Below are positions 316 to 33,333 of a stretch of DNA of 45,451 nucleotides, piece after piece. Made by a program: the position numbers and the translations under genes. Positions within the stretch are counted from its first letter, which is position 1. Each line of letters begins with the position of its first letter. Source of the DNA: Acholeplasmatales bacterium (GTDB lineage: Bacteria; Bacillota_I; Bacilli_A; Acholeplasmatales; Acholeplasmataceae). The notes beneath the pieces were generated by a model. That model was not told where the DNA came from. It was given only the letters and a program-made list of their open reading frames with translations, and did no database searches. Location of the stretch: the NCBI GenBank assembly GCA_031284605.1, contig JAITXV010000020.1, positions 1 to 45,451 on the forward strand, given 5' to 3'.

Positions 316-1810
316 GGTGTCCGAAAACCCCTATTTTGCATAATTTTTGATGCTAATTAGTCTTGATAAATTATATAATATTGATAGGACATAAATTGTC
401 GTTTCATTTCTTTTTATTCCTATCCTTTTAAGTTTTTTGTTATTTGTATTGACCTTTGTAAATCCAAATGGAGATTCTGCTATATTTGCTCTCTTTGTGT
501 AACTGTCTATATTTTCTTGTGTATTTATTACAATTTCGAGTTCATCTTCTAGTTCTATTTTTTCTATATCTACTTGTATTACATGAGTATTTTGCATTGA
601 TTTACTACACTTTGGATCAACACATGTTTTGGAATCTCTGCATCTAAAAATTGAATAATTACCATTTTTGCTATTCATCAATTCAAGATTATTATTATTT
701 GGACAAGTGATTGTTCTATAGTCTTTTGACACTTTCCAGTCTGGATGTAAGTCTCTAAAGTTATTTCCTTTTTTTCTACTAACAAAAACTACCCCATCCT
801 TTTTGAACTGTTTAATTATTTCTACAGATAAGTAGCCTCTATCAGCTGTTAGCTTAGTAATTTTATATATCTCACTGAACTTTTCATAAGCTTTAATAAA
901 TGCACTTGAATCTGGATTTAGATTAGATAAATAATTAAATATAATTAAGCCATATTCACTCTCTTCAAATAATAGAACGTTATACCCAGCGATATATGAT
1001 TTATTCTTGTCTTGTATTATAACCGCTTCACTATCGTTTATTCCATATGAATCACGACTATATATTTTTAAGTTTTCTGTTCTTTTCAAGTTACGAATTA
1101 ATCTGTCCTTGGCATTAGTTATTTGCTCATCTGTTGATAGCGTGTTATTTAAGATATTTTGTTGTGACCTGTTAGAACGCTCAACATTATCCTTAGTTAT
1201 TATTTTATGCCTGTTATTGTTAGCTTCATATACTGTTCCATCACAGAATATTTCTTCTAACTTTAGTGATAGTTCCTTGCTAATTAAAGTGACAAACTGA
1301 TTAAATATTTCTTTAATATGTTCATCTAGTATGCTAATAAAGTCACTCATAGTACTTCTTTTTGGGTGTGAGAGTTCTCCATCATTAAGATAAGAAAATT
1401 CGGAACCATACACAAACATATTTTCTAGTTTCCTAAAAGATATATGATTATACACTGAATACAGGTATATTTTAAGAAGCCTACTAAATTTGAATCTTGG
1501 TCTGCCCCCTTTCACTTTATCTGATTTACAATGTTTTTCTAACATTGATAAGTCTAATTTATTAATATAGTGATTTATTATCATACACATATTTGATAAT
1601 TTTTTAGGATCAAAATCAGTAAACATATCGTATTTGTATCCTTTATCACTATAAAAAGGATATTTTGTGGTATCATTAATCATATGGTGAACTCCTTTAT
1701 TTTAACACTTAGTCATGTTAATTATAAATGATTTCACCTTTTTTATATGATTATTTGATAATATTGATATTTATGAAAGTGTCCACAAAGGGGGGTTTTC
1801 GGACACCCCC
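316..1810 (-). mobile_element. IS1182-family insertion sequence, apparently complete, nested in another transposase gene
   Basis: The 1495-bp element has one full-length transposase gene. The left end reads GGTGTCCGAAAACCCC and the right end is its inverted match (GGGGTTTTCGGACACC, followed by CCC at the outer edge). The flanks carry a 7-bp direct repeat, TATAGAG, at 309-315 and 1811-1817. The G at 315 can belong either to the repeat or to the element, so the boundary is uncertain by one base. The element sits inside the transposase gene described on both sides of it. The transposase stop codon lies on the edge of the left inverted repeat, leaving almost no non-coding DNA there. Confidence 0.9.
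331..1683 (-). CDS. IS1182-family DDE transposase
   Basis: This 450-aa protein should cut and rejoin the ends of the surrounding element. The N-terminal third matches the DUF772-type DNA-binding region of IS1182 transposases (GGRPRFKFSRLLKIYLYSVYN followed by YGSEFSYLNDGELSHPKRSTMSDF). The catalytic core shows FCDGTVYEANNN (first Asp), then TADRGYLSVEIIKQF (second Asp). The C-terminal ANIAESPFGFTKV carries the likely catalytic Glu. A zinc-like cluster (CRDSKTCVDPKCSKSMQ) sits between the second Asp and the Glu, as is common in this family. Length is normal and no frame break is visible, so it is likely functional. A good AAAGGAG ribosome site precedes the ATG. Confidence 0.9.
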   Translation of the reverse strand: MINDTTKYPFYSDKGYKYDMFTDFDPKKLSNMCMIINHYINKLDLSMLEKHCKSDKVKGGRPRFKFSRLLKIYLYSVYNHISFRKLENMFVYGSEFSYLNDGELSHPKRSTMSDFISILDEHIKEIFNQFVTLISKELSLKLEEIFCDGTVYEANNNRHKIITKDNVERSNRSQQNILNNTLSTDEQITNAKDRLIRNLKRTENLKIYSRDSYGINDSEAVIIQDKNKSYIAGYNVLLFEESEYGLIIFNYLSNLNPDSSAFIKAYEKFSEIYKITKLTADRGYLSVEIIKQFKKDGVVFVSRKKGNNFRDLHPDWKVSKDYRTITCPNNNNLELMNSKNGNYSIFRCRDSKTCVDPKCSKSMQNTHVIQVDIEKIELEDELEIVINTQENIDSYTKRANIAESPFGFTKVNTNNKKLKRIGIKRNETTIYVLSILYNLSRLISIKNYAK

Positions 1811-4688: not shown

Positions 4689-5297
4689 ATGGCTGTTTAT
4701 CCAGATTGGTTATTAAAATATAAAACTAAAGGGATATATGCAAATAAATTAAGTGAATCTTCTTACTCTTTATATAAAGCTCATTCAGAATGGGATAAAG
4801 ATAAGAAACGCAGTATAAGAATATGTGATGGATACTTAGGTATAGTTACACAAGACTTAGGATTAGTTAAAACTAGAAATAGAGAACTTCCAGATATTAT
4901 AACTTATGAGTTTGGTGAGTTTAAAGCTATATTAGATAAAACACATATAGATAAAGAATATTGTTCTAAGAATTTTTTGTATTACAAAAATGTCATACTG
5001 TGTGCTAGTTTATTAAATGTAGTATATAAAGAATATAATGAATACTTATTTTCAAATACTTATCTTTCACTAGTATATAAAAATGTAAACTTTAATAAAA
5101 TAGGTTCTCTAGTTAGTGCAGAAATTACAAGAATGACTGCTAAAGTTATTACTTTACTAAATAACTTTGAGTTTAGTAAATATAAGTTTATTCATTTAGT
5201 TAAAAGCAAAGATGTATTTAAAATAACTAATATAGATGAATACATTCTAAATATAGCACAAGTACAAGGAGTTGAATTAAAATATGAAAATAGCTAA
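4689..5297 (+). CDS. ISAs1 passenger protein resembling a detached transposase N-terminal domain
   Basis: The 202-aa product has no catalytic motif of its own. The segment LYKAHSEWDKDKKRSIRICDGYLGIV has the layout of N-terminal regions of IS1634/IS4-type transposases. The later stretch LFSNTYLSLVYKNVNFNKI aligns in position with YENSYISEVYKDVSISKNT in the broken transposase at 1811-2242. It therefore looks like a free-standing version of that DNA-binding module. Its last 14 bases overlap the start of the transposase gene, so translation is probably coupled. It could help the transposase bind the ends, or repress the promoter through the palindrome. Similarity was judged by eye. Confidence 0.7.
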   Translation: MAVYPDWLLKYKTKGIYANKLSESSYSLYKAHSEWDKDKKRSIRICDGYLGIVTQDLGLVKTRNRELPDIITYEFGEFKAILDKTHIDKEYCSKNFLYYKNVILCASLLNVVYKEYNEYLFSNTYLSLVYKNVNFNKIGSLVSAEITRMTAKVITLLNNFEFSKYKFIHLVKSKDVFKITNIDEYILNIAQVQGVELKYENS

Positions 5298-6594
5298 TAT
5301 ATTATTAAATTATCAAAAATATATATCTAAAATAGATTTAAGTGATGTGGTTGTTTCTTCTAAACTAAATAATAAATTTATAGTTAAGCTTATAGCTATT
5401 ATAGAAGACAATATAAATGACACTAGAAAATCATATTTAATCAAATATAAGTTAGAACATATAATAGTTCTAGCATTTTTAGCTATTTTATGTGGTGGAT
5501 GTGATGACTTTGTAGAAATAGAAGCATTTTGTAAAACTAAATATCCTTTTTTAAATAAACTATTATCACTTACTAATGGTGTTCCTTCACACGATACTTT
5601 TAGAAGGGTATTTATGATTATAGATTGTGATGCTTTTAATAAGATAACTTTGATATTTTTAAATAAATTATTAAAAAGATTACGTAAAGTACTTAAAGTG
5701 GATAATAATATTAAACATATCGCTGTAGATGGTAAAGTGTTAAGAGGAAGTTCAAGATTAAATAATACATCTAAAGAAATAAAACATACACAAAACTTAA
5801 ATGTATATGATGCAAGTGAAGGGATAGTACTTTCAACTACACCTATAGACAAAAAAACTAATGAGATACCAGTAGCCAAGCAAGTATTAAGTACTTTATC
5901 TTTGAAGAATACTGTGGTAAGTGCAGATGCACTTCACACACAAAAAGCTACTGTAGCTATAATTACTTCTAAAGGTGGAGACTATGTATTAGGTGTAAAA
6001 ACTAATCAAAGTAATTTTCACACAGCCATAATTGATAGTTTTACTCAAAACAAAAGTAAATTAAAAACTAAAATAACGGATGGAACTGCTCATAACAATT
6101 TAGAAAAAAGAACCTTTTATATTATGAATAAGAAATTAGTAAATGATAGTCAAACTAAGAAATGGAATAATCTAAAAAATATTATAATATATGAAAAAGA
6201 ATGTATTAATAAAGTAACATCTTTAAAAACTATAGAAGCTAGGTATTACATAAGCTCTTTAAAAGATTTAGATCTAATAGCAGAAGTAATTAGAGCCCAT
6301 TGGGAGATAGAAAACAATATGATCAGGTTTTTAGATATTTTATTTAAAGAAGATAGTATAAGTATAGTTAATTCTAAAAGTATTACTAATTTTTCAATAC
6401 TTAATAAAATGTGCTTAACACTTTTGAAATATGCAAAACCATTAGTGCATAACAATAAGTATTCACTTAAAACATTAAGAAAGTCCTTTACATGGGGAAT
6501 GGAAGAAGAACTAATCAACATATTATCATATATTGATGATTATAAGTTAATTAACTTAATAAAAGAAGAAATAGAAAAAGAAAAAAGAAAATAA
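5284..6594 (+). CDS. ISAs1-family DDE transposase
   Basis: The 436-aa protein opens with the DDE_Tnp_1_assoc domain typical of ISAs1/H-repeat proteins (LEHIIVLAFLAILCGGCDDFVEIE, then PSHDTFRRVF). The catalytic core shows HIAVDGKVLRGS (first Asp), VVSADALHTQKA (second Asp), and RAHWEIENNMIRFLDILFKED, the family's HW-IEN-LD-F-ED block with the catalytic Glu. Length and motif order are normal. The ATG lies inside the end of the upstream 202-aa gene, and the element's ends are intact, so the protein is probably active. Confidence 0.95.
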   Translation: MKIANILLNYQKYISKIDLSDVVVSSKLNNKFIVKLIAIIEDNINDTRKSYLIKYKLEHIIVLAFLAILCGGCDDFVEIEAFCKTKYPFLNKLLSLTNGVPSHDTFRRVFMIIDCDAFNKITLIFLNKLLKRLRKVLKVDNNIKHIAVDGKVLRGSSRLNNTSKEIKHTQNLNVYDASEGIVLSTTPIDKKTNEIPVAKQVLSTLSLKNTVVSADALHTQKATVAIITSKGGDYVLGVKTNQSNFHTAIIDSFTQNKSKLKTKITDGTAHNNLEKRTFYIMNKKLVNDSQTKKWNNLKNIIIYEKECINKVTSLKTIEARYYISSLKDLDLIAEVIRAHWEIENNMIRFLDILFKEDSISIVNSKSITNFSILNKMCLTLLKYAKPLVHNNKYSLKTLRKSFTWGMEEELINILSYIDDYKLINLIKEEIEKEKRK

Positions 6595-9695: not shown

Positions 9696-10226
9696 CTATT
9701 TTAGTTCTAGTAAATCATATATTGTTTTATGATTTTTAATAGTTTTATTATAGTATTTTAAAACATCAAGCAAAATGCCTATAGTGAAATAAGACTTAAT
9801 AAAATTGTAATTTTTCACAGATTTTACTTTAAGAATATTACTCACATATTCGCTTGGTTTCATGCTAGACTTATATTTTTGGAAATCTTTGTATTTGTTC
9901 TGAGCAATAATATATAATATCTCAATTTCTGGAGTTGTTTTAAATTCGACCACTTCTACAAGACTAAAGTATTTTTTGGATATTTTGAAATGTTCTTTTG
10001 TCGAATCATTTATGTAATAAATAATAATTTTCTTTTGTGAATATTTATTTAAATATTCATTTTCAAAATTGATATGATTCCTATAGTAAGATCCTAAAAT
10101 TGGATTTAACAAATCTATTACATCATTATAATCAAACGACAAAAGATTATTTTCTAAAAGTATTTCCATTATTGTTTTTTCTGCAGCTCCCTCACAAATG
10201 CATGCTTCTAACTTATTAGTCTTCAT
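9696..10226 (-). CDS. Small partner of the AAA ATPase, EGAAE-motif protein (Toprim- or RloB-like, uncertain)
   Basis: The 176-aa product begins with a beta strand and an acidic turn, ACICEGAAEKTIMEIL (Glu12, Glu16). A second strand ends in an Asp, IIIYYINDS (Asp74), followed by TTPEIEILYII (Glu100, Glu102). The spacing of a Glu after the first strand and an Asp after a later one recalls compact Toprim-like nucleases or the RloB family. That is a guess, because the full Toprim DxD is not evident. From memory it resembles a widespread uncharacterised Firmicutes family found beside AAA ATPases. Its start overlaps the end of the ATPase gene by 11 bp, so the two are translated together. Confidence 0.75.
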   Translation of the reverse strand: MKTNKLEACICEGAAEKTIMEILLENNLLSFDYNDVIDLLNPILGSYYRNHINFENEYLNKYSQKKIIIYYINDSTKEHFKISKKYFSLVEVVEFKTTPEIEILYIIAQNKYKDFQKYKSSMKPSEYVSNILKVKSVKNYNFIKSYFTIGILLDVLKYYNKTIKNHKTIYDLLELK

Positions 10227-11445
10227 TTATTTCTTCATCATTTGTGCTTATTGATTTTACTAACATATTAAATATTTCTCTATTCGGTGCAGTTGTTTCA
10301 CTAAGCATATTTTTTAAATATGAATCGCTTTTTTGTTTGTCATTTCTTTTTAACAATTTTGATAAGTTTGTTATTTTAGAATAACCATTAATTTGTTTTG
10401 AAGTTATATAAATTGAATCATTCCTTTTTATGCAATCTAATAATTCTGAGTAATGTGTTGTAAAAATCAGCGTTGCTCCAAGTTTATTGGTAACTTTAGA
10501 ACTAAAAAGTTTTATAATATCTACTGCTAATGCTTTGTGAATACCTTGTTCAATTTCGTCTATAATAAAATATCCTCCGTATTTTAAAATACTAACCACA
10601 GATTTAAATAGTCTAATCCATCTCACTGTTCCAGCAGAAAGTTTAGAATCTAAGTAAAATTCTTCAATTTCCTTTGCTTCCCTGCCTTTAAATTTTAAAT
10701 CGTAAGATATTATTTTGGAATTTTCGTTATTTTTTTTATTAAGATATTCAACGGAACTATCTAAATAATTTATTAAATTTGGTGGAATATTTCCAAGTCT
10801 TTTATTAAGATTTATTCCTAATTCATTTGTAACTGTAAAGATAGTTTTTGTTTTATAATAAAAATTAGTATATTTAAAAATACATTCGTCTGATTCAATG
10901 TTTAATTTATTAGAAATTACATCACTTTGATTGGATTTTATTTCGAACCTATTTATTATTTCATTTCTTGTAATTGTTGTAGAATTTTGGAAGTCAAACA
11001 GATGTTTTAATGATAACCCGCCATTATTTTTATATTTGATATAGTCATTTATTATTGATAGTTTTTGATTATTAGAATTTTTAATACTTGCACAGTACAT
11101 AAATATTTTCTTTTGTGTAAAAGAATATGCAATTATTTCAATTTCTATATTTTCTTTTAAAATATCCATAAAGCCATATGCATAACCATCAAAAACATCT
11201 AAATTAATGTTTCCTGTAGAAATAATCCCCGCAGCCCAAGCAAGCAACCTTGCTGCAGTTGTTTTCCCTGAAGAATTAGCGCCAGCTAGTGCTATTAAGT
11301 TGTTCGTATATACGCTACCAAATAAAAAACTAAGTTCGCCTTCTTCACCCCTTGCGTTTTGTTTATTTGTAAATTCTACTACAAATTCTCCATTTTCGAA
11401 ATTCTCAATTCCTTTGAATTTTACCGACAAAATTCTATTGCTCAT
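10216..11445 (-). CDS. ABC/SMC-like AAA family ATPase (AAA_15/AAA_21 type) of a two-gene cassette
   Basis: ATG at 11445 is chosen because AGAGGTA lies just upstream; this gives 409 aa, 14 fewer than the longest frame. Motifs in order: Walker A GANSSGKTT at 55-63, ABC-like signature LSAGTVRWIRL at 269-279, Walker B FIIDEIE at 293-299, and an H-loop TTH at 329-331. This is the single-gene ABC-ATPase fold seen in OLD, RloA, PARIS AriA and similar phage-defence ATPases. No nuclease domain is fused to it; the 176-aa downstream protein may supply the effector. A perfect palindrome covers its promoter. A defence role is inferred from architecture. Confidence 0.88.
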   Translation of the reverse strand: MSNRILSVKFKGIENFENGEFVVEFTNKQNARGEEGELSFLFGSVYTNNLIALAGANSSGKTTAARLLAWAAGIISTGNINLDVFDGYAYGFMDILKENIEIEIIAYSFTQKKIFMYCASIKNSNNQKLSIINDYIKYKNNGGLSLKHLFDFQNSTTITRNEIINRFEIKSNQSDVISNKLNIESDECIFKYTNFYYKTKTIFTVTNELGINLNKRLGNIPPNLINYLDSSVEYLNKKNNENSKIISYDLKFKGREAKEIEEFYLDSKLSAGTVRWIRLFKSVVSILKYGGYFIIDEIEQGIHKALAVDIIKLFSSKVTNKLGATLIFTTHYSELLDCIKRNDSIYITSKQINGYSKITNLSKLLKRNDKQKSDSYLKNMLSETTAPNREIFNMLVKSISTNDEEINED

Positions 11446-11480
11446 TTCATTACCTCTCATAAATATTATATCATAAAATA

Positions 11481-11509
11481 GAAACAAAACGTAAAAAACG
11501 TTTTGTTTC
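11481..11509. promoter_or_regulatory. Perfect palindrome at the promoter of the AAA cassette
   Basis: GAAACAAAACG, seven bases, CGTTTTGTTTC: perfect 11-bp arms. On the minus strand a TATAAT box follows about 10 bases downstream of the palindrome, so it overlaps the -35 region. This position fits a dimeric repressor site. It has no T run, so it is unlikely to be a terminator. No regulator gene lies next to it. Confidence 0.65.
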
Positions 11510-23466: not shown

Positions 23467-26400
23467 ATGTTTAAAACTATTAAGTCAAAATTATTAATCA
23501 CCCTAGTTGTTATTTGTTTTTCTATTTTCACATTTTCTTCGTGTGTTACAAAATCTCTTAACTCGATATTTTATGAAACAAATGGCGGAATTGCCATATC
23601 AGGTTCATTATACGATGCTGGAGATGTGATAACATTACCTAATCCTTCTAAACAAGGGTATACTTTTAGTGGATGGTACTTAGATAAGAACCTAAGCACT
23701 AAAGTAAATTCTGTTACTATGGGAAATGAAGATATAACTGTATATGCCGCTTGGGTAGAAAATAAATTAACTGTTATATATCATTCATTAACTAGCGAAC
23801 TTGATTCTTCCCAAGAAATAAAATATACCGACACTTCTCATAATTTGAATAGTCCGTCATATTTAAATAACGGATATAATATGACATTTTGGACTCCTAA
23901 AGGAAGTACTGATATTTATTATAGAGGAAACGAAGATGTCTCAAGCTTAATATTAACCCCAAATAGTGTTTTAGAACTAAATCCATTTTGGGAACAAATA
24001 AATTACAATATAACTTTTCAAACTAATAGTTCATTTGTTATCGAAAATTTAACTTATAATATTGGTTCTCTTATTTACGTTCCATCTTCATACAAAGAAG
24101 GTTATACTTTTGTTCATTGGGAATTAATATCTTCAAGCGGAAATTGGAAAGAAAACCAAATAATAGCTGGCGGAGAAGAGTTGTTTGAATATTACGGAAA
24201 TGTTACTTTAAGTGCTGTTTATGATTGTGATGAATTTAGTATAACAATAATAGGTTTTGACTCAGTAGTTTCTAGCGATATAACTTATTATTCAAATTCT
24301 GATGCATTTATTCCTTCTATTACAAGAGATGGCTATAATTTGATAAATTATGAAGTAACTTTTGGTACTGGTACATGGCACATAGGACAAAGGGTTAACG
24401 CTGGAGATAATTTGTTTTCTAAATATGGTGACGCAACGCTAAGTGCTAATTGGGAAATTATTAATTATACCCTAACTATAAATACTAATACCTTTTTAGG
24501 AGAAATACTAATATCGTACAACGCCTCTTCTAGTGACCGCTTACCACTTTTAGAAAAAATAGGATACTATTTTGATGGTTATTTACCAAGGGAAGTTAGC
24601 GGAAACTGGGAAATTGACTGGCTATATGTTTATGGTTATAATTTATATAATAATTACGGAAATGTTTATCTGGAGGCATTATGGACACCAATATCTTATA
24701 AAATAGATTATTTAGAACTAAATGGTACGCTTATAGAAGATGCTATATACGAAATAACAGATATAATAGTTTTACCATCACTTACTAGAATTGGTTATAA
24801 TTTTATAGGTTGGAAAGTAATAGAAAGCACTGGAAACTGGAGAATAAATGATATATTTGTACCTCTAACACAAGTAAGTGGAAATTACGGAGACGTTAAT
24901 CTTGAAGCTGTATGGGATAGTATTAATTACAATATATCTTTTGACTCAGATGGTGCAGATTATATAGATACACTTTCTTTCACAGTAGAAAGTGACGCTA
25001 TCATAAGCGCCCCTTCTAAGTTAGGATATAATTTCTTATATTGGGAAGTTCTAAGTTCTAATGGTAATATAGAAATTTTAGAACACTTGTATTCACCATA
25101 TTTTTTATATGGAACTTATGGTGATATAAGTTTAAAAGCTATTTATGAAATTATTGACTACACAATTAATTATTATCTTGGAAGTGAACTTTTAACTAGT
25201 AATACTTATACAATAGAAGATAGTTTTTATCTTGAAGATATAACAATCCCTCACTATAATTTTTTATATTGGGAGTCTTTAGAAAATAGTGGAAGTTGGC
25301 TTAATAATGCTATATATAGTACTACACAATTAATAAGTGGATACACTGGAAGTGTTAATTTATATTTAAGAAATGAACCTATTAGTTATAATATTATTTT
25401 TGATACAGATTCTTTAGATAATGTAAGTGGCTTAGCATATACTATTGAAGATTATTTTTATTTACCACAGACATCTAAAATAGGATATTTATTTTTAGGA
25501 TGGTCTCCTAAAAATAATAATGAATTCTGGAGTGAAAGTATTTATAGCACTAACAATTTGTTAAGTCATGCGTACGGAAGCGTTGAGTTAATAGCAGTTT
25601 ATGAATTGATAGAGTATTATTATCTTATTTCTGATGACACAGGTTTTATTATATTCTTTGATACTTATACAATAGAAGATACTATCACACTAATAGAAGA
25701 TAGTATTATTGGATATAATTTTATAGAATACACTGTTACATTTTCTAGTGGTTCTTTAGTGTATGGAAATAGTTATATGGCGTATGAAACACTTAGTAAT
25801 ATCTGGGGAAATTTTGAACTAAGCGCAGTTTATCAAATTAAATCTTATTATTTAACTTTTGATGAGTCAAATGGAGAAGATATGATAGATGGAATTTATG
25901 AATATAATAGTGTTCTTCCTATTCCTAGTAAAGTTGGTTATAATTTTATAGGATGGAGTACGAGTATAGGAGATGAAAATAAGTTTTTCATATTACCAGA
26001 TATAGGTAATAATCCATCTTATGAAATTTATGCTAATTACGAAAAGAAACACTATAATTTAACAATTAATTATAACAATGAGACCGAATATACTGCTCTA
26101 ATTCAAGTAAATTACAACGATGCGTTACCTGTTTTAAATAATTTTTTATATTTAGGGTATGAATTTATTGGATATAATACTGATAATTTAAGTAATTATG
26201 GTTACTTATTGTGTGAAGATTATGGCTCTAATGGTGATTATCAAATTTATGCAATATGGAGTATAATTAATTATACCATCACTTATAATTACAATGGTGG
26301 AATAGTTAGCGGTAATGTCCCTACTACTTATACGGTTTTAGATGAATTTATGTTGCCTAATATTACTAAAAATGGATACCATTTAGAAAATGGTTGGTTT

Positions 26401-29400
26401 GTTAGTAATATAGGATCTACTAATACAATTTATTCACATACAACTGGTAATTTAGTAGTGACTGCTAATTGGATCATTAATACTTATACCATTACTTATT
26501 ACTTTTTAGGTGATGAGATTCACCAAAGTATAAGTGTATTAAACTTTAACGATGAACTTCCATTTAAAAATAAAGAAGGTTATACTTTCTTAGGATGGGC
26601 AACAAGTGCTGGTAATCCTTCTTATAGTGTTTTAGATTATGGAAACAGTAATTCTAGTGTAATACTTTATGCAACATTTAGTGATAAAACTTTTTATATT
26701 AATTACTATGTTGATGATACTCTAACAGATCTTAGTGCTGGTACTCTTTATTACGGTTCAACGCTTCCAAATATTACAAAATTAGGATATATATTTTTAG
26801 GATGGAACACTTTCGGAAATGATCAGAGTGGTTGTTTTATAGTAGTTCCAGATTTAGGAGCAGATGAAAGTACGCATGATTTATATGCTATATTTGAAAT
26901 AATAACTTATGAAATAACTTATACTAATTTATTAGGGACTATTACTACTAATCCTACTTCTTATAATGTAACTTCTAATATTACTTTAAGTATCCCTTCT
27001 TTATTAACAGGATATGATTTTAGTAATTGGAGTATTAATAACAACATAGTAACTACTATTAATGCGGGTTCTACAGGCGATATAAATATAAAAGCGTCTT
27101 GGAGTGCTAAATATTATTTACTTAATTTTAATACATTTAGTGGTAGTGCTGTTAACCAAAATACATTTACATATCATGATAATATTCCACTAACTTCTAA
27201 AACCGGATATAATTTTCTGGGATGGTGTTTAGATTCTTCATTAACTGGTACTTCCTATTTAGTAGTAGAACAATTTAGTGTTAGCAGTGGTACTTTAATA
27301 GAACTATATGCTAAGTATGAAATTAAGACATTTAATATAAATTTTGAACTTAATGGTGGTTCTAGTGGTTCTTTACCTAGTGGTCTTAGTTATGGTTCTA
27401 ATTTGCCTGTTCCTTCTAAAATAGGACACGATTTCTTGGGATGGTATACTAATCCTAGCTTTAACGGATATTCTGTATTAAATGTTCCTGATTTTGGGAA
27501 TGATACAGCTACTTATATGCTTTACGCTGCATGGGAAACTAAACTTATTATAATAACTTTTGATACTATGGGCGGAGATAATTTAGCAGTTAGTACTACA
27601 AGTATTAGGTATGGAAGTGCAATAGGCACTTTGCCATCTCCTGTAAAAGAAGGGTATTCTTTCTTAAATTGGTATTATTATATAGGTATGACCAAGACTC
27701 CAATTCAAAGCGGTAGTATAGTAAGTAATTCTTCTAATTTTACTATTTATGCTTCATGGAACCCTAACAATTATGCAGTTGCATATAATTCAAATGTACC
27801 TTCTTCTGCATCTGTAGCAGTTAGTGGTACTATGGAATTAAATGTTTATAATTACGGAGTGCAATTTAATCTTCTTCCTAACAAATTTGTTCTTTCAGGA
27901 TATAGGTTTTTAGGATGGTCACTTACCCAAAATGGACCAGTTAAATATAGCAATACAGAAGAAGTATCCTCTTTAACTAGCCAAGAATTAATATTTAATT
28001 TATATGCGAAGTGGGAAGCTTCTTCATATACTATTACTTTTATGGTATCTTCACAAGTTTTAACAACTAAAACTGTAACTATGGATCAAAGTTATGGAGC
28101 GTTGCCTGGATATGATAACGGAGGTTACCATTTAAATAATTGGGTAATATCTGGTAATACTGTTATTACTTCTAGTTCTAAATTTAATACCCCTAATTTT
28201 TTAACAGCTACAGCACAACTTTTAGCTAATACTTATTATGTTAATTTTAATACTCAAGGCGGTGTTATATTAAATAAAGCTTCTATTAATTATTTACAAT
28301 CATTTTCAACTATACTTTCAAATCCTACTAAATTAAACCATATTTTTAATAATTGGACTTTAAATGGTACAAGTACTGTTGTTAATGATAGTACTATATG
28401 TTCTAATTTTGGATTAAACGGAAGTGAAATAACTTTAAATGCTAATTTTTCAATTGTTTATACTATTGTATATGATTCTAATGAACCTAATACATCTAGT
28501 GGAAGCGTTAGTGGAGCTACTAGTGAATCTGTTCACACAGCTGGTATTTCTAGTAAATTAACTAAAAACGGATATTCTTTAGTTGGTTATAACTTCTTAG
28601 GATGGTCTTTAACTAATAAAGGAGCTAAAGTATTTAATGATAACGATACCATTTTAAATATTGCTGGATATCAAAACTTTGTAGTAATTATTTATGCTAA
28701 GTGGGAAGTTAGAAGTTTTAGTGTCACTTATGTGAATTATAGTGGTACTTCAAACACCGTAATAAATGTTACTTATGATTCTTTTTATAATTTGGCAGCT
28801 TTAACTAATCCTACTGCTAGAAATTATTATACATTTAGTGGATGGTACACTAGTGAAAATGGTGATGAATTAGTTGTAAATGCATTAAATAGGTGGACAT
28901 CTTTAACAAATTTAACTATATATGCACATTGGATACCTTTTTCTATTACAATAAAATATGCTCCAACTCTTTTACTTAATTCAGGTTACAATCTTTCATA
29001 TTATGGGACTATTGATAATATGACTTTTAATTATGAAAGCAGTCCTTATACTATAAATAAATATATGTTTGCATCAGCTATTAAAGTTGAGCCTAAAGTT
29101 GTATATGATGTATCAGGAAGAACTAGGGGATTTAATCTAACTGGTGGTGGTTTAAATAATTTTGGTACTTTTAAAGCGAATGTAAAAGAAGAAGATATGT
29201 ATACAGTAATAAAACCTAATGAATTCATAAGAGATTTTAATGGTTTATCAAATTCAAAAGTAACTATTGAATTAAAAGCAGTTTACTATGTAATTGAGCT
29301 AACATCTATTAATTATTATGGGTATCATAAAAATGATAATACTAACGCAGATGTAGATATGCTAAAAAAACAAATAGTCTATGCAAATAAAAGTATAGCA

Positions 29401-29415
29401 TTACAATATATATAA
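23467..29415 (+). CDS. Giant repetitive surface lipoprotein with about 24 Listeria-Bacteroides (InlB B-type) repeats
   Basis: The 1982-aa product starts with a lipoprotein signal peptide ending FTFSSC (lipid Cys at 26), so it should be tethered outside the cell membrane. The rest is a chain of about 24 repeats of some 70 residues. Each has a core like K-x-GY-x-F-x-GW (KQGYTFSGW, KIGYLFLGW, KEGYTFLGW, KTGYNFLGW), then a strand ending in LYAxW or LxAxW. This matches the Listeria-Bacteroides repeat family (Flg_new, beta-grasp). There is no LPxTG or S-layer anchor. Early repeats are more diverged than later ones. The C-terminal 130 residues are unique. The native end may lie further on (see 29416). 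Confidence 0.93.
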   Translation: MFKTIKSKLLITLVVICFSIFTFSSCVTKSLNSIFYETNGGIAISGSLYDAGDVITLPNPSKQGYTFSGWYLDKNLSTKVNSVTMGNEDITVYAAWVENKLTVIYHSLTSELDSSQEIKYTDTSHNLNSPSYLNNGYNMTFWTPKGSTDIYYRGNEDVSSLILTPNSVLELNPFWEQINYNITFQTNSSFVIENLTYNIGSLIYVPSSYKEGYTFVHWELISSSGNWKENQIIAGGEELFEYYGNVTLSAVYDCDEFSITIIGFDSVVSSDITYYSNSDAFIPSITRDGYNLINYEVTFGTGTWHIGQRVNAGDNLFSKYGDATLSANWEIINYTLTINTNTFLGEILISYNASSSDRLPLLEKIGYYFDGYLPREVSGNWEIDWLYVYGYNLYNNYGNVYLEALWTPISYKIDYLELNGTLIEDAIYEITDIIVLPSLTRIGYNFIGWKVIESTGNWRINDIFVPLTQVSGNYGDVNLEAVWDSINYNISFDSDGADYIDTLSFTVESDAIISAPSKLGYNFLYWEVLSSNGNIEILEHLYSPYFLYGTYGDISLKAIYEIIDYTINYYLGSELLTSNTYTIEDSFYLEDITIPHYNFLYWESLENSGSWLNNAIYSTTQLISGYTGSVNLYLRNEPISYNIIFDTDSLDNVSGLAYTIEDYFYLPQTSKIGYLFLGWSPKNNNEFWSESIYSTNNLLSHAYGSVELIAVYELIEYYYLISDDTGFIIFFDTYTIEDTITLIEDSIIGYNFIEYTVTFSSGSLVYGNSYMAYETLSNIWGNFELSAVYQIKSYYLTFDESNGEDMIDGIYEYNSVLPIPSKVGYNFIGWSTSIGDENKFFILPDIGNNPSYEIYANYEKKHYNLTINYNNETEYTALIQVNYNDALPVLNNFLYLGYEFIGYNTDNLSNYGYLLCEDYGSNGDYQIYAIWSIINYTITYNYNGGIVSGNVPTTYTVLDEFMLPNITKNGYHLENGWFVSNIGSTNTIYSHTTGNLVVTANWIINTYTITYYFLGDEIHQSISVLNFNDELPFKNKEGYTFLGWATSAGNPSYSVLDYGNSNSSVILYATFSDKTFYINYYVDDTLTDLSAGTLYYGSTLPNITKLGYIFLGWNTFGNDQSGCFIVVPDLGADESTHDLYAIFEIITYEITYTNLLGTITTNPTSYNVTSNITLSIPSLLTGYDFSNWSINNNIVTTINAGSTGDINIKASWSAKYYLLNFNTFSGSAVNQNTFTYHDNIPLTSKTGYNFLGWCLDSSLTGTSYLVVEQFSVSSGTLIELYAKYEIKTFNINFELNGGSSGSLPSGLSYGSNLPVPSKIGHDFLGWYTNPSFNGYSVLNVPDFGNDTATYMLYAAWETKLIIITFDTMGGDNLAVSTTSIRYGSAIGTLPSPVKEGYSFLNWYYYIGMTKTPIQSGSIVSNSSNFTIYASWNPNNYAVAYNSNVPSSASVAVSGTMELNVYNYGVQFNLLPNKFVLSGYRFLGWSLTQNGPVKYSNTEEVSSLTSQELIFNLYAKWEASSYTITFMVSSQVLTTKTVTMDQSYGALPGYDNGGYHLNNWVISGNTVITSSSKFNTPNFLTATAQLLANTYYVNFNTQGGVILNKASINYLQSFSTILSNPTKLNHIFNNWTLNGTSTVVNDSTICSNFGLNGSEITLNANFSIVYTIVYDSNEPNTSSGSVSGATSESVHTAGISSKLTKNGYSLVGYNFLGWSLTNKGAKVFNDNDTILNIAGYQNFVVIIYAKWEVRSFSVTYVNYSGTSNTVINVTYDSFYNLAALTNPTARNYYTFSGWYTSENGDELVVNALNRWTSLTNLTIYAHWIPFSITIKYAPTLLLNSGYNLSYYGTIDNMTFNYESSPYTINKYMFASAIKVEPKVVYDVSGRTRGFNLTGGGLNNFGTFKANVKEEDMYTVIKPNEFIRDFNGLSNSKVTIELKAVYYVIELTSINYYGYHKNDNTNADVDMLKKQIVYANKSIALQYI

Positions 29416-29882: not shown

Positions 29883-30000
29883 TTAATAGTCATTTAGATT
29901 TTTATTTTAATATGGATGGGATTATATGGCATAAACAAGCATATGAGTAACAAATTTTTTGTAGCAATATTTAATTAATTATTGCATAATTTTAATATGG

Positions 30001-30006
30001 TATAAT
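30001..30006 (+). promoter_or_regulatory. Promoter -10 box of the Sel1/HEPN-like gene
   Basis: TATAAT, 29 bases before the ATG, with AAGGAG between them. No convincing -35 is seen at the right distance. Confidence 0.5.
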
Positions 30007-30035
30007 AGATTAAACGATATCTAAGGAGTAGCCAA

Positions 30036-31265
30036 ATGGATGAGAAAGAATATAAACAATTGCTTCAAACATTAGAAATATTAGAAAAAGATAATAAAAA
30101 ATCTGAAGCATTTGATGTATTAGTAAAACTTAATAGTTATCCATTGAAAACAGGAGATGTTATTTTTAAACTAGCGTATAAATACTATAAACCATATGAA
30201 GGTGCTCCACAAAGCTATTCAAAAGCTTATGAACTATTTATGGAAGCTTCTAAAAAAGATAATCCAGATGCATTATATTATTTATATCTTATGTATTATT
30301 CAGGAAACTATGCAAAACAAGATAAAGAAAAAGCTATTCAATATTTTATTGAAGCTTTGAGGCTAGGTCAAAAACAAGCTCTTAAAACTTTAGAAGAAGT
30401 TTCAAAAACCTTAAAGAAAGAACCAAGTGTAACAGAAATCCAAAATAATCAAAATGAGATAAAGGTGCTAAGTGAAAGTAATAATAAGCTTAATGAAACC
30501 AACAAAAGCTTAAAACTAGATATTAAAAACAAAGATAAAGAAATTATGGCTTTAAAATCCCAAAACGATAAATTGAAGAAAGAATATCTAATTCAAGGTA
30601 ATAGTGATGTTGGAGAACTCTTAAAATATAATGGTAATTTTTATAAAGAGATATTATATAAAAATATTCAAGCCAAACATACGATATTTTCACATTTAGT
30701 AAATAAAACTTTAGATGATACTAAAAGTATTGTGGAAAGTTTAAATAGACAAAAAACAGGATTTGAAAAAATAATATGTACATTTTATTATTACTATGAT
30801 CAATCCAAACTTAACCATAACGATGCTTTAGATATGGAATTTTCATTTTTATTAACTCCTTTAAACAAAGCTATTGAAATATTGTTTGGTTCATTTTTTA
30901 AAGCGATATTTCATAAGAGAAAATATAAAATTCCACCAAATGTATCTATAAAAACCAAAAAAGCACTTACTATTGAAACATTTATTGAAAAAACAACTGT
31001 AAGAGAAAAAATCATTGTGCTTAATAATTGGATTAAATTTGATAATGATAGTATATTTATAAACAATACTAAATCCCTTATTGGAGATTTTGTAAATAAA
31101 ATTAATAATTGGTATACAAAAAGAAATGAAGTCACTCACAGCATATCTATAATTGATTTTGAAACTACTAATAAATATATTGATCAAGCAATTATTATAT
31201 TATGTGAAATAGTAGATTTAGCTATATTTTTCAAATTAGATAAATGGTGGGAAGAAAACAATTAG
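30036..31265 (+). CDS. Sel1-repeat, coiled-coil protein with HEPN-like C-terminal motif
   Basis: The 409-aa cytoplasmic protein has three visible parts. Residues about 55-118 form Sel1-like (TPR-type) repeats (SKAYELFMEASKKDNPDALYY, then EKAIQYFIEALRLGQ). Residues about 132-186 are a coiled coil rich in Lys, Glu, Asn and Leu. Residues about 200-400 are helical and contain RNEVTH at 363-368, the RN-x3-H arrangement of HEPN-type RNases, in a helix (NKINNWYTKRNEVTHS) like those of known HEPN proteins. A repeat-plus-HEPN build is common in stress or phage-defence RNases. No antitoxin or partner gene is evident. Function is inferred and the HEPN call is by motif only. Confidence 0.7.
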   Translation: MDEKEYKQLLQTLEILEKDNKKSEAFDVLVKLNSYPLKTGDVIFKLAYKYYKPYEGAPQSYSKAYELFMEASKKDNPDALYYLYLMYYSGNYAKQDKEKAIQYFIEALRLGQKQALKTLEEVSKTLKKEPSVTEIQNNQNEIKVLSESNNKLNETNKSLKLDIKNKDKEIMALKSQNDKLKKEYLIQGNSDVGELLKYNGNFYKEILYKNIQAKHTIFSHLVNKTLDDTKSIVESLNRQKTGFEKIICTFYYYYDQSKLNHNDALDMEFSFLLTPLNKAIEILFGSFFKAIFHKRKYKIPPNVSIKTKKALTIETFIEKTTVREKIIVLNNWIKFDNDSIFINNTKSLIGDFVNKINNWYTKRNEVTHSISIIDFETTNKYIDQAIIILCEIVDLAIFFKLDKWWEENN

Positions 31266-31740
31266 ATCATTTCTTATTGTTATTAAAACAAGTGAAAGAA
31301 AACAAAACGAATACAACCTATTATAGGAATATTTAAGTGAAAATGGAAACTTAGTAATTAAGTTATCTTATGAAGACAATAAAAATATCATTAGTTTTGA
31401 TATAGATCATTCATTTTTAATATATAAAAAATAACCTATAAATTTAAGATATATTTTTAATAAAATCTCTCCAAATGAACGCTAGTTGTATTTAATAAAA
31501 TAGAAAGTGACAAGTAAAAATGTATTTTTTTTAAAACACTGCAATCACTAATACAGGTTAGTTAATTGGTGCAACTGCAGACCAAATTATAAAACAATAG
31601 TTTTAATTTGCGATAACGAATGTTATATTTGAAACTTTGTAAAAACAGAAAACTGAGTAAGACAAATAACGAAGATAATTGGGTTTTCAAAAAGATATAA
31701 AAAACTCAAAAACATTGATATATAGGTTTATTAAGCAAAA
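31266..31740. other. Stretch with only gene fragments
   Basis: One frame (about 31330-31434) reads EYLSENGNLVIKLSYEDNKNIISF to LIYKK and a TAA, with a stop just upstream and no start or ribosome site. It is probably the tail of a lost gene. Beyond it, to 31740, no open frame, RNA or repeat is recognised. Confidence 0.5.
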
Positions 31741-31747
31741 TATTAAT

Positions 31748-31789
31748 AATAATGCACTACTAAATTTAATTTTTTAGTAGTGCATTATT
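31748..31789. terminator. Terminator of the FAD-protein gene, probably bidirectional
   Basis: AATAATGCACTACTAAA pairs perfectly with TTTAGTAGTGCATTATT over an 8-base loop, directly after the minus-strand stop at 31795. Confidence 0.88.
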
Positions 31790-31794
31790 TATTT

Positions 31795-33333
31795 TTATTC
31801 GATTATTACTGCTACCTTTATTGCATCGGTTATAGCAGACATAATTCCTCCAGAATATCCAGATCCATCTCCAATACAATAAATATTTTTAATACTTGTA
31901 CATAAACCTTCTTTTCTTATTACAGTTACTGGTGCAGATGACCTAGTTTCAACACCACTTAATATAGAATCAGGATTTTTAAATCCTTTTATTTTTATTT
32001 CAAAATCATCTAATGCTTTTAACATAGTGTTTCTAATAAATGAAGGGTATATCTCATTTAAATTTTTAAAATAGTATCTTTTAACAGATGGTTTTATATT
32101 TCCTAAGGAACTGCTAACTTTATTGTCTATAAAATCTCCTAATCTTTGAACTGGTACACAGTAAGGATATTTTTCACTGTAAGATGCACTTTCAAACTGT
32201 TTTCTATAATAAAAGCCATCTAAAACATCATTCTTATAGTAATCACTTACATTTATATTAACTAACAATGCAGAATTAGAATTAACATTGTTTCTATCTT
32301 TATTGCTCATTCCATTTACTACAACTGTCTTTTCTTCATTCATAGTTGGTATTACAAAACCACCGGGACACATACAAAAAGTATACGCTGACCTGTCATT
32401 ACCGTGGTATGCTAGTTGATAATCAGATGCTCTTAATTCAAACTTCTCTTCATATCCTTTATACTGTACATTATCTATATCTTTTCTTAAATGTTCAATT
32501 CTAAATCCAAGCGAAAAGGCTTTTGGTTCCATTTCAATCCCTTTATTTTTCAATAAGCTATAATTTTTTACATCAGAAGTTCCTGTTCCTAAAATTAACT
32601 TGTCAAAAACTTTAGAATGTTTATTGTCTTTATTAGCCAATAAAACACTTATTTTATTATTTTCTAAAACATCAAAATCTATTAATTTAGTTTCAAACAA
32701 AATATTAACTCCATTCTCAAGCAAGTAGTTTCTTATATTTTTAACTATTTTCTTTAGATAGTCAGTACCAAGATGTGGCTTATTATCATATAATATATCT
32801 TCGCTTGCTCCAAATTTAAATAGTTCTTTTAGTACGAACTTAATATAACCATTTCTAACCCCAGTTCCTATTTTTCCATCCGAAAAAGTTCCTGCTCCAC
32901 CCTCTCCGTATAAAAAATTAGATTCAGGATCAAATATACCGTTTTCTAATAATTTGTTACAATCTATGTCCCTTTCTTCAACTTTCTTGCCTCTTTCAAT
33001 TAAAGTAACCTTAACTCCTCTATATAACATAACCAAACTAAAGAAAAGACCAGCGGGACCAGTGCCAACTACTAATATTTCTTCTTCTTTCTTTTTTAAA
33101 AAAGTTATGCTTTCTTCTTTGTATTCAAGCAGTAATTTATGAATTATTGGTTTATCTGAAGAAACAATTAAACTATATACATTACATCTTTCATGCTCTC
33201 TCATATCTAAAGCTTTTCTGTTAATTTGGATATCTTTTTCATCAAATATAAAATTAGTAAGTATTCTAATCCTTTTAGAGAAATTATTATTTTGACCTAG
33301 CGGTACCTTTACATTATTAATTAAATATTTCAT
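31795..33333 (-). CDS. FAD-dependent dehydrogenase family protein (COG2509 type)
   Basis: The 512-aa protein has an N-terminal extension of about 85 residues, then a dinucleotide-binding fold with VVGTGPAGLFFSL at 88-100 and LIERG at the end of the second strand. NFLYGEGGAGTFSDGKI is a hallmark of the COG2509 group, and a C-terminal CIGDGSGYSGGIMSAITDAIK completes the FAD site. Family members are conserved in Firmicutes but their substrate is unknown; they are sometimes annotated as NAD(FAD)-utilising dehydrogenases. It diverges from the HIT gene across a 105-bp spacer. Confidence 0.9.
   Translation of the reverse strand: MKYLINNVKVPLGQNNNFSKRIRILTNFIFDEKDIQINRKALDMREHERCNVYSLIVSSDKPIIHKLLLEYKEESITFLKKKEEEILVVGTGPAGLFFSLVMLYRGVKVTLIERGKKVEERDIDCNKLLENGIFDPESNFLYGEGGAGTFSDGKIGTGVRNGYIKFVLKELFKFGASEDILYDNKPHLGTDYLKKIVKNIRNYLLENGVNILFETKLIDFDVLENNKISVLLANKDNKHSKVFDKLILGTGTSDVKNYSLLKNKGIEMEPKAFSLGFRIEHLRKDIDNVQYKGYEEKFELRASDYQLAYHGNDRSAYTFCMCPGGFVIPTMNEEKTVVVNGMSNKDRNNVNSNSALLVNINVSDYYKNDVLDGFYYRKQFESASYSEKYPYCVPVQRLGDFIDNKVSSSLGNIKPSVKRYYFKNLNEIYPSFIRNTMLKALDDFEIKIKGFKNPDSILSGVETRSSAPVTVIRKEGLCTSIKNIYCIGDGSGYSGGIMSAITDAIKVAVIIE

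Follow-up and report, generated by a model that had tools for sequence, protein, structure and literature searches.

The 45,451-nucleotide stretch analysed here (the window; contig JAITXV010000020.1, assembly GCA_031284605.1, from an Acholeplasmatales bacterium) carries, at 30036-31265 on the plus strand, a gene for a 409-amino-acid protein in which Sel1 repeats, a coiled coil and an all-helical C-terminal region follow one another. The C-terminal region holds the hexapeptide RNEVTH, and we tentatively read the product as solitary and oligomeric, bearing a divergent HEPN-like ribonuclease (RNase) domain, a reading to which we assign a probability of about 0.42. We favour it because the motif is rare by chance, the predicted helices come in a HEPN-like order, the C-terminal setting is free of proline and glycine, both Sel1-HEPN fusions and operons joining Sel1 with AbiU2 are on record, and the gene is intact. 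The features of the gene are as follows.

29998..30006, plus strand: possible extended -10 promoter element TGGTATAAT, from direct reading of the sequence; a weak lead
30023..30028, plus strand: ribosome-binding site AAGGAG, read from the sequence, with the ATG 7 bases downstream
30036..31265, plus strand: open reading frame (ORF) of 409 amino acids with Sel1 repeats, coiled coil and all-helical C-terminal domain
30156..30380, plus strand: two Sel1 repeats, about residues 41-115, from Pfam, PDB phmmer and PHROG matches
30435..30584, plus strand: coiled coil spanning roughly residues 134-183, its core positions holding I/L/N, from a heptad count and a single long model helix at 133-186
30591..31262, plus strand: orphan all-helical C-terminal region, residues 186-409, with a HEPN-like layout of low-confidence model helices and no family or homologue match
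31122..31139, plus strand: RNEVTH, residues 363-368, candidate Rx4H active-site motif, from the sequence and chance estimates

RNEVTH conforms to the HEPN signature Rx4-6H with a polar residue after the arginine. When the whole protein was shuffled, the pattern RN...H arose in 0.55% of cases, and when its C-terminal part was shuffled, in 1.0%; the looser R.{4,6}H arose in 17-24% of shuffles. RNEVTH is a 0.5-1% chance event because arginine and histidine are scarce in the protein, with five of each. Across 242 ORFs (90,141 amino acids) RN...H occurs five times, that is, four times in the 241 ORFs besides this one, and RNEVTH is the only occurrence that lies fewer than 60 residues from the C-terminus and is followed by a tail without proline or glycine. 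Since a reader selects the best motif from a whole window, we take these figures as moderate evidence that the motif is more than chance.

In HEPN domains the motif is placed at the end of helix 3, with helix 4 following, a polar residue after the arginine and helices 2 and 3 separated by an insert (PMC3710099). Single-sequence structure models of our protein, with mean predicted local distance difference test (pLDDT) scores of 46.5 and 44.6, below usable confidence, predict a helix at residues 270-293, an insert with short helices, a helix at 340-368 that ends in RNEVTH, a short loop and a last helix at 375-408. A model of the C-terminal part by itself keeps these low-confidence helices in the same order. 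In both models RNEVTH closes the penultimate helix, ahead of the last one, and the modelled order agrees with the canonical HEPN layout, an agreement that is suggestive only.

The gene is genuine and intact, with a ribosome-binding site, a possible extended -10 element (absent from the output of a two-hexamer promoter scan) and an in-frame codon signal. The codon score of the ORF is 0.319 in frame versus at most 0.09 in the five remaining frames, that of the C-terminal part alone is 0.227 versus at most 0.05 elsewhere, and the in-frame codon use is like that of the window's housekeeping genes. Guanine-plus-cytosine (GC) content by codon position is 0.35/0.23/0.14. As judged from sequence matches, the N-terminal part belongs to the Sel1 repeat family: Pfam Sel1 (PF08238) covers two N-terminal stretches at 22.7 bits, under its 30.7-bit gathering cut-off, a phmmer search of the PDB matches residues 36-111 to the Sel1-repeat protein 1ouv (E=2.7e-9) along with several further Sel1 structures, and phrog_8741 matches the protein at E=1.3e-8. 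The number of repeats is only about two. Over residues 127-190, the best heptad register has 10 of 18 a/d positions hydrophobic (3-6 in the other registers), and Asn occupies several core positions of the coiled coil. The Sel1 repeats, coiled coil and RNEVTH motif named in the original prediction are thus confirmed by 1ouv, phrog_8741, the heptad count and residues 363-368.

Under the preferred reading, the protein would be cytoplasmic and act on its own, its two Sel1 repeats binding a partner and its coiled coil building a dimer or higher oligomer. The C-terminal helical domain would be a divergent HEPN domain, with R363 and H368 where its penultimate helix ends; these two residues may make up an RNase site that spans the dimer and needs no metal, and RNase activity would be restrained until the Sel1/coiled-coil part senses the partner. 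We infer fold, dimerisation, activity and regulation alike. The proposal of a HEPN RNase sensor-effector is supported in part, in that its parts are present and the motif sits at the HEPN position in low-confidence models; the defence role attached to it found no support, and a phage-defence role for this protein is a guess.

Several observations weigh against a HEPN domain. No HEPN family of Pfam, NCBIfam or PADLOC matches the protein, and the C-terminal domain gave no match in Pfam, NCBIfam, PHROG, PADLOC or the PDB. No homologue of the protein turned up, hence no conservation for R363 and H368: none was found in 160 genomes of the order, 395 of the class and 392 of the phylum (these samples overlap), in genome and viral contigs scanned from seeds, a search that detects close relatives only, or by tblastn of phages and plasmids. 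The models are under usable confidence, and Foldseek with such a model returned no HEPN and no match at E<=0.001, a fold comparison that is uninformative because the models are poor (pLDDT about 45). The Ex3[KR] of HEPN helix 2 is absent, E268 being followed by FSFL and E281 by ILFG with no K/R four residues on; this element is common in HEPN helix 2, not universal. Aligned with profiles of DUF4145 and AbiU2 relatives, the protein scores no better than shuffles. For DUF4145, hhalign placed NEVTH on the relatives' NNVAH with the last helix in register, at a score within the shuffle range, and for AbiU2 the score was reached by 38 of 100 shuffles; a single sequence set against small alignments gives little power, and this negative does not exclude HEPN.

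Weak matches to the C-terminal part were discarded one by one. By sequence reading, two genome matches were an oligopeptidase F-like protein (L038) and an RmuC-like protein (L046), and many further ones cross stop codons. Of the fetched loci, L042 alone has an R[ND]...H close to its match, in a setting that is unrelated, and the only viral match (L091) has 'VNNWYTKRN' in common by chance, in an ORF without a histidine at the motif. Caspase-3, returned by phmmer of the C-terminal part against the PDB (E=0.14 or worse, 44 residues), is a chance match. A separate locus, L050 1-1142 (minus strand), at a contig end of a same-genus genome, carries the start of an apparent Cas9 gene.

The main rival, which we hold to be a serious possibility short of probable, is that the protein is a scaffold or adaptor built of Sel1 repeats and a coiled coil, with a non-HEPN helical domain at its C-terminus and with RNEVTH arisen by chance in a helix rich in Lys and Asn. 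Firm homology is confined to Sel1, Sel1 proteins are common among the relatives, no HEPN profile or fold was matched, and RN...H recurs in shuffles (about 1%) and in four places in the other 241 ORFs. In the relatives' Sel1 proteins that were read in the right frame (minus-strand loci are not among these), the Sel1 repeats run to the end and a HEPN-like tail was not found. Against a mere scaffold, the position and spacing of the motif, its polar second residue and the terminal helix after it, free of proline and glycine, all fit the HEPN layout. Should the protein not be a HEPN RNase, it would serve as a caution that a six-residue HEPN signature occurs in roughly 1-2% of ORFs, and that conservation or fold is required before a defence role is claimed from it.

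Two further accounts would keep the HEPN fold. It is unlikely that the domain has given up RNA cleavage and works instead in dimerisation or in binding RNA or nucleotides, although several HEPN families are listed from which the motif has gone or whose role is binding (PMC3710099); the absent acidic residue of Ex3[KR] would suit such a domain, whereas the Rx4H motif is complete. Similarly improbable is that the C-terminal region founds a new and very rare Rx4H HEPN family, orphan in all genomes searched, the protein being a single-gene effector switched on by a Sel1-bound phage or stress protein, for which an antitoxin would be unneeded because its own Sel1/coiled-coil part would gate the RNase. 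Least probable of all is a lineage-specific orphan without stable function, for example a recently acquired, decaying accessory gene. That no collection searched holds a homologue, that the flanking 31266-31794 looks degraded and that the GC content of the gene is 23.8% versus 27.5% for the window would suit such an orphan; the intact ORF, its ribosome-binding site and the clear codon signal, which extends to the C-terminal part, speak against it.

Upstream of the gene lie a TfoX_N-like gene and a gene for a Listeria-Bacteroides-repeat protein, which is probably a surface protein; downstream follow, in order, a degraded stretch, a flavin adenine dinucleotide (FAD)-dependent dehydrogenase-like protein, a HIT-like protein and seryl-tRNA synthetase, where names other than Pfam hits come from reading the sequences. 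Two features of the surroundings are these.

23467-29415, plus strand: 1982-amino-acid protein whose N-terminus is lipoprotein-like and in which the Listeria-Bacteroides repeat (Flg_new, E=6.6e-87) occurs 19 times
31748..31789, no strand assigned: 17-bp hairpin with T runs on either side, strong and bidirectional terminator-like

The hairpin is likely a bidirectional terminator shared by the 409-amino-acid gene and the convergent gene 31795-33333. The setting among gene fragments described earlier holds in part: 31266-31794 has no plus-strand ORF of 60 amino acids or more, and only one short protein-like remnant, EYLSENGNLVIKLSYEDNKNIISFDIDHSFLIYKK at 31330-31430 (plus strand), is seen within this degraded stretch 3' of the gene. 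The suspicion that a TfoX-like fragment is duplicated downstream found no support in blastn. Relatives without the 409-amino-acid gene still carry the TfoX-like and dehydrogenase genes. The gene beside the TfoX-like homologue varies among the relatives examined, and none of these neighbours resembles our protein, which points to no conserved partner.

The view of the gene as a defence effector fares poorly, as none of its immediate neighbours is a defence, antitoxin or mobile gene, the context consisting of housekeeping or metabolic and surface genes, and no family library, PADLOC included, recognises the C-terminal domain. No small partner ORF of the HEPN-MNT kind overlaps or follows the gene on the plus strand, and the protein's one PADLOC match, to DruC, is weak (E=0.0065) and covers residues 85-237, which are mostly coiled coil. 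The only defence-like locus seen in the window is 9696-11487 (minus strand), about 18 kb away with housekeeping genes between, and is likely an AbiL/PARIS-type defence pair. It comprises an AAA_21 ATPase (10216-11487, minus strand; PADLOC AbiLi E=5e-36, AriA E=3e-14) followed by a gene for a 176-amino-acid product with a Toprim-like look at its start, ACICEGAAEKTIMEILLENNLL. Two DDE transposases, of different families, lie towards the window's left end, at 331-1683 (minus strand) and 5284-6594 (plus strand).

The combination was at first thought unfamiliar; in fact, similar ones were tabulated in 2013, namely Sel1 fused to a DUF4145-type HEPN, AbiU2 sharing an operon with a gene of Sel1 repeats, and HEPN of the LA2681 type fused to TPR (PMC3710099). 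The DUF4145-type HEPN (PF13643), whose Sel1-DUF4145 fusions occur in Firmicutes, shares with our protein the Sel1 part, a C-terminal helical domain and an R...N..H before the last helix. The DUF4145 relatives collected, however, have Rx6H (R..GN..AH) where our protein has Rx4H; R..GN..H is not found in it, and PF13643 has no Pfam match in the genome. HEPN_AbiU2 (PF18734) resembles it in the all-helical domain, the RN...H-type motif and the association with Sel1, whereas AbiU2 relatives have Rx5H (RNKIYAH, RNKLNAH), a spacing not found here, and carry Sel1 on a separate gene rather than in a single chain; PF18734 likewise has no Pfam match in the genome. The Rx4H spacing thus sets our protein apart from both Sel1-linked HEPN families. 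HEPN_LA2681 (PF18733) offers the same architecture of helical repeats and HEPN (PMC3710099) with TPR in place of Sel1 repeats; its profile has no match in the genome, and the class sample holds no confident member. CoCoNuT systems (PMC11090510) are described with coiled coils, predicted RNA targeting and frequent mention of HEPN; they are McrBC-type multi-gene systems, and no McrB or McrC gene adjoins ours. Altogether, even if our reading is true, the 409-amino-acid protein joins a known plan, fusions of HEPN to Sel1 and to TPR having already been published (PMC3710099); as an active HEPN RNase, it would be one further repeat-sensor and HEPN effector, in a small-genome lineage.
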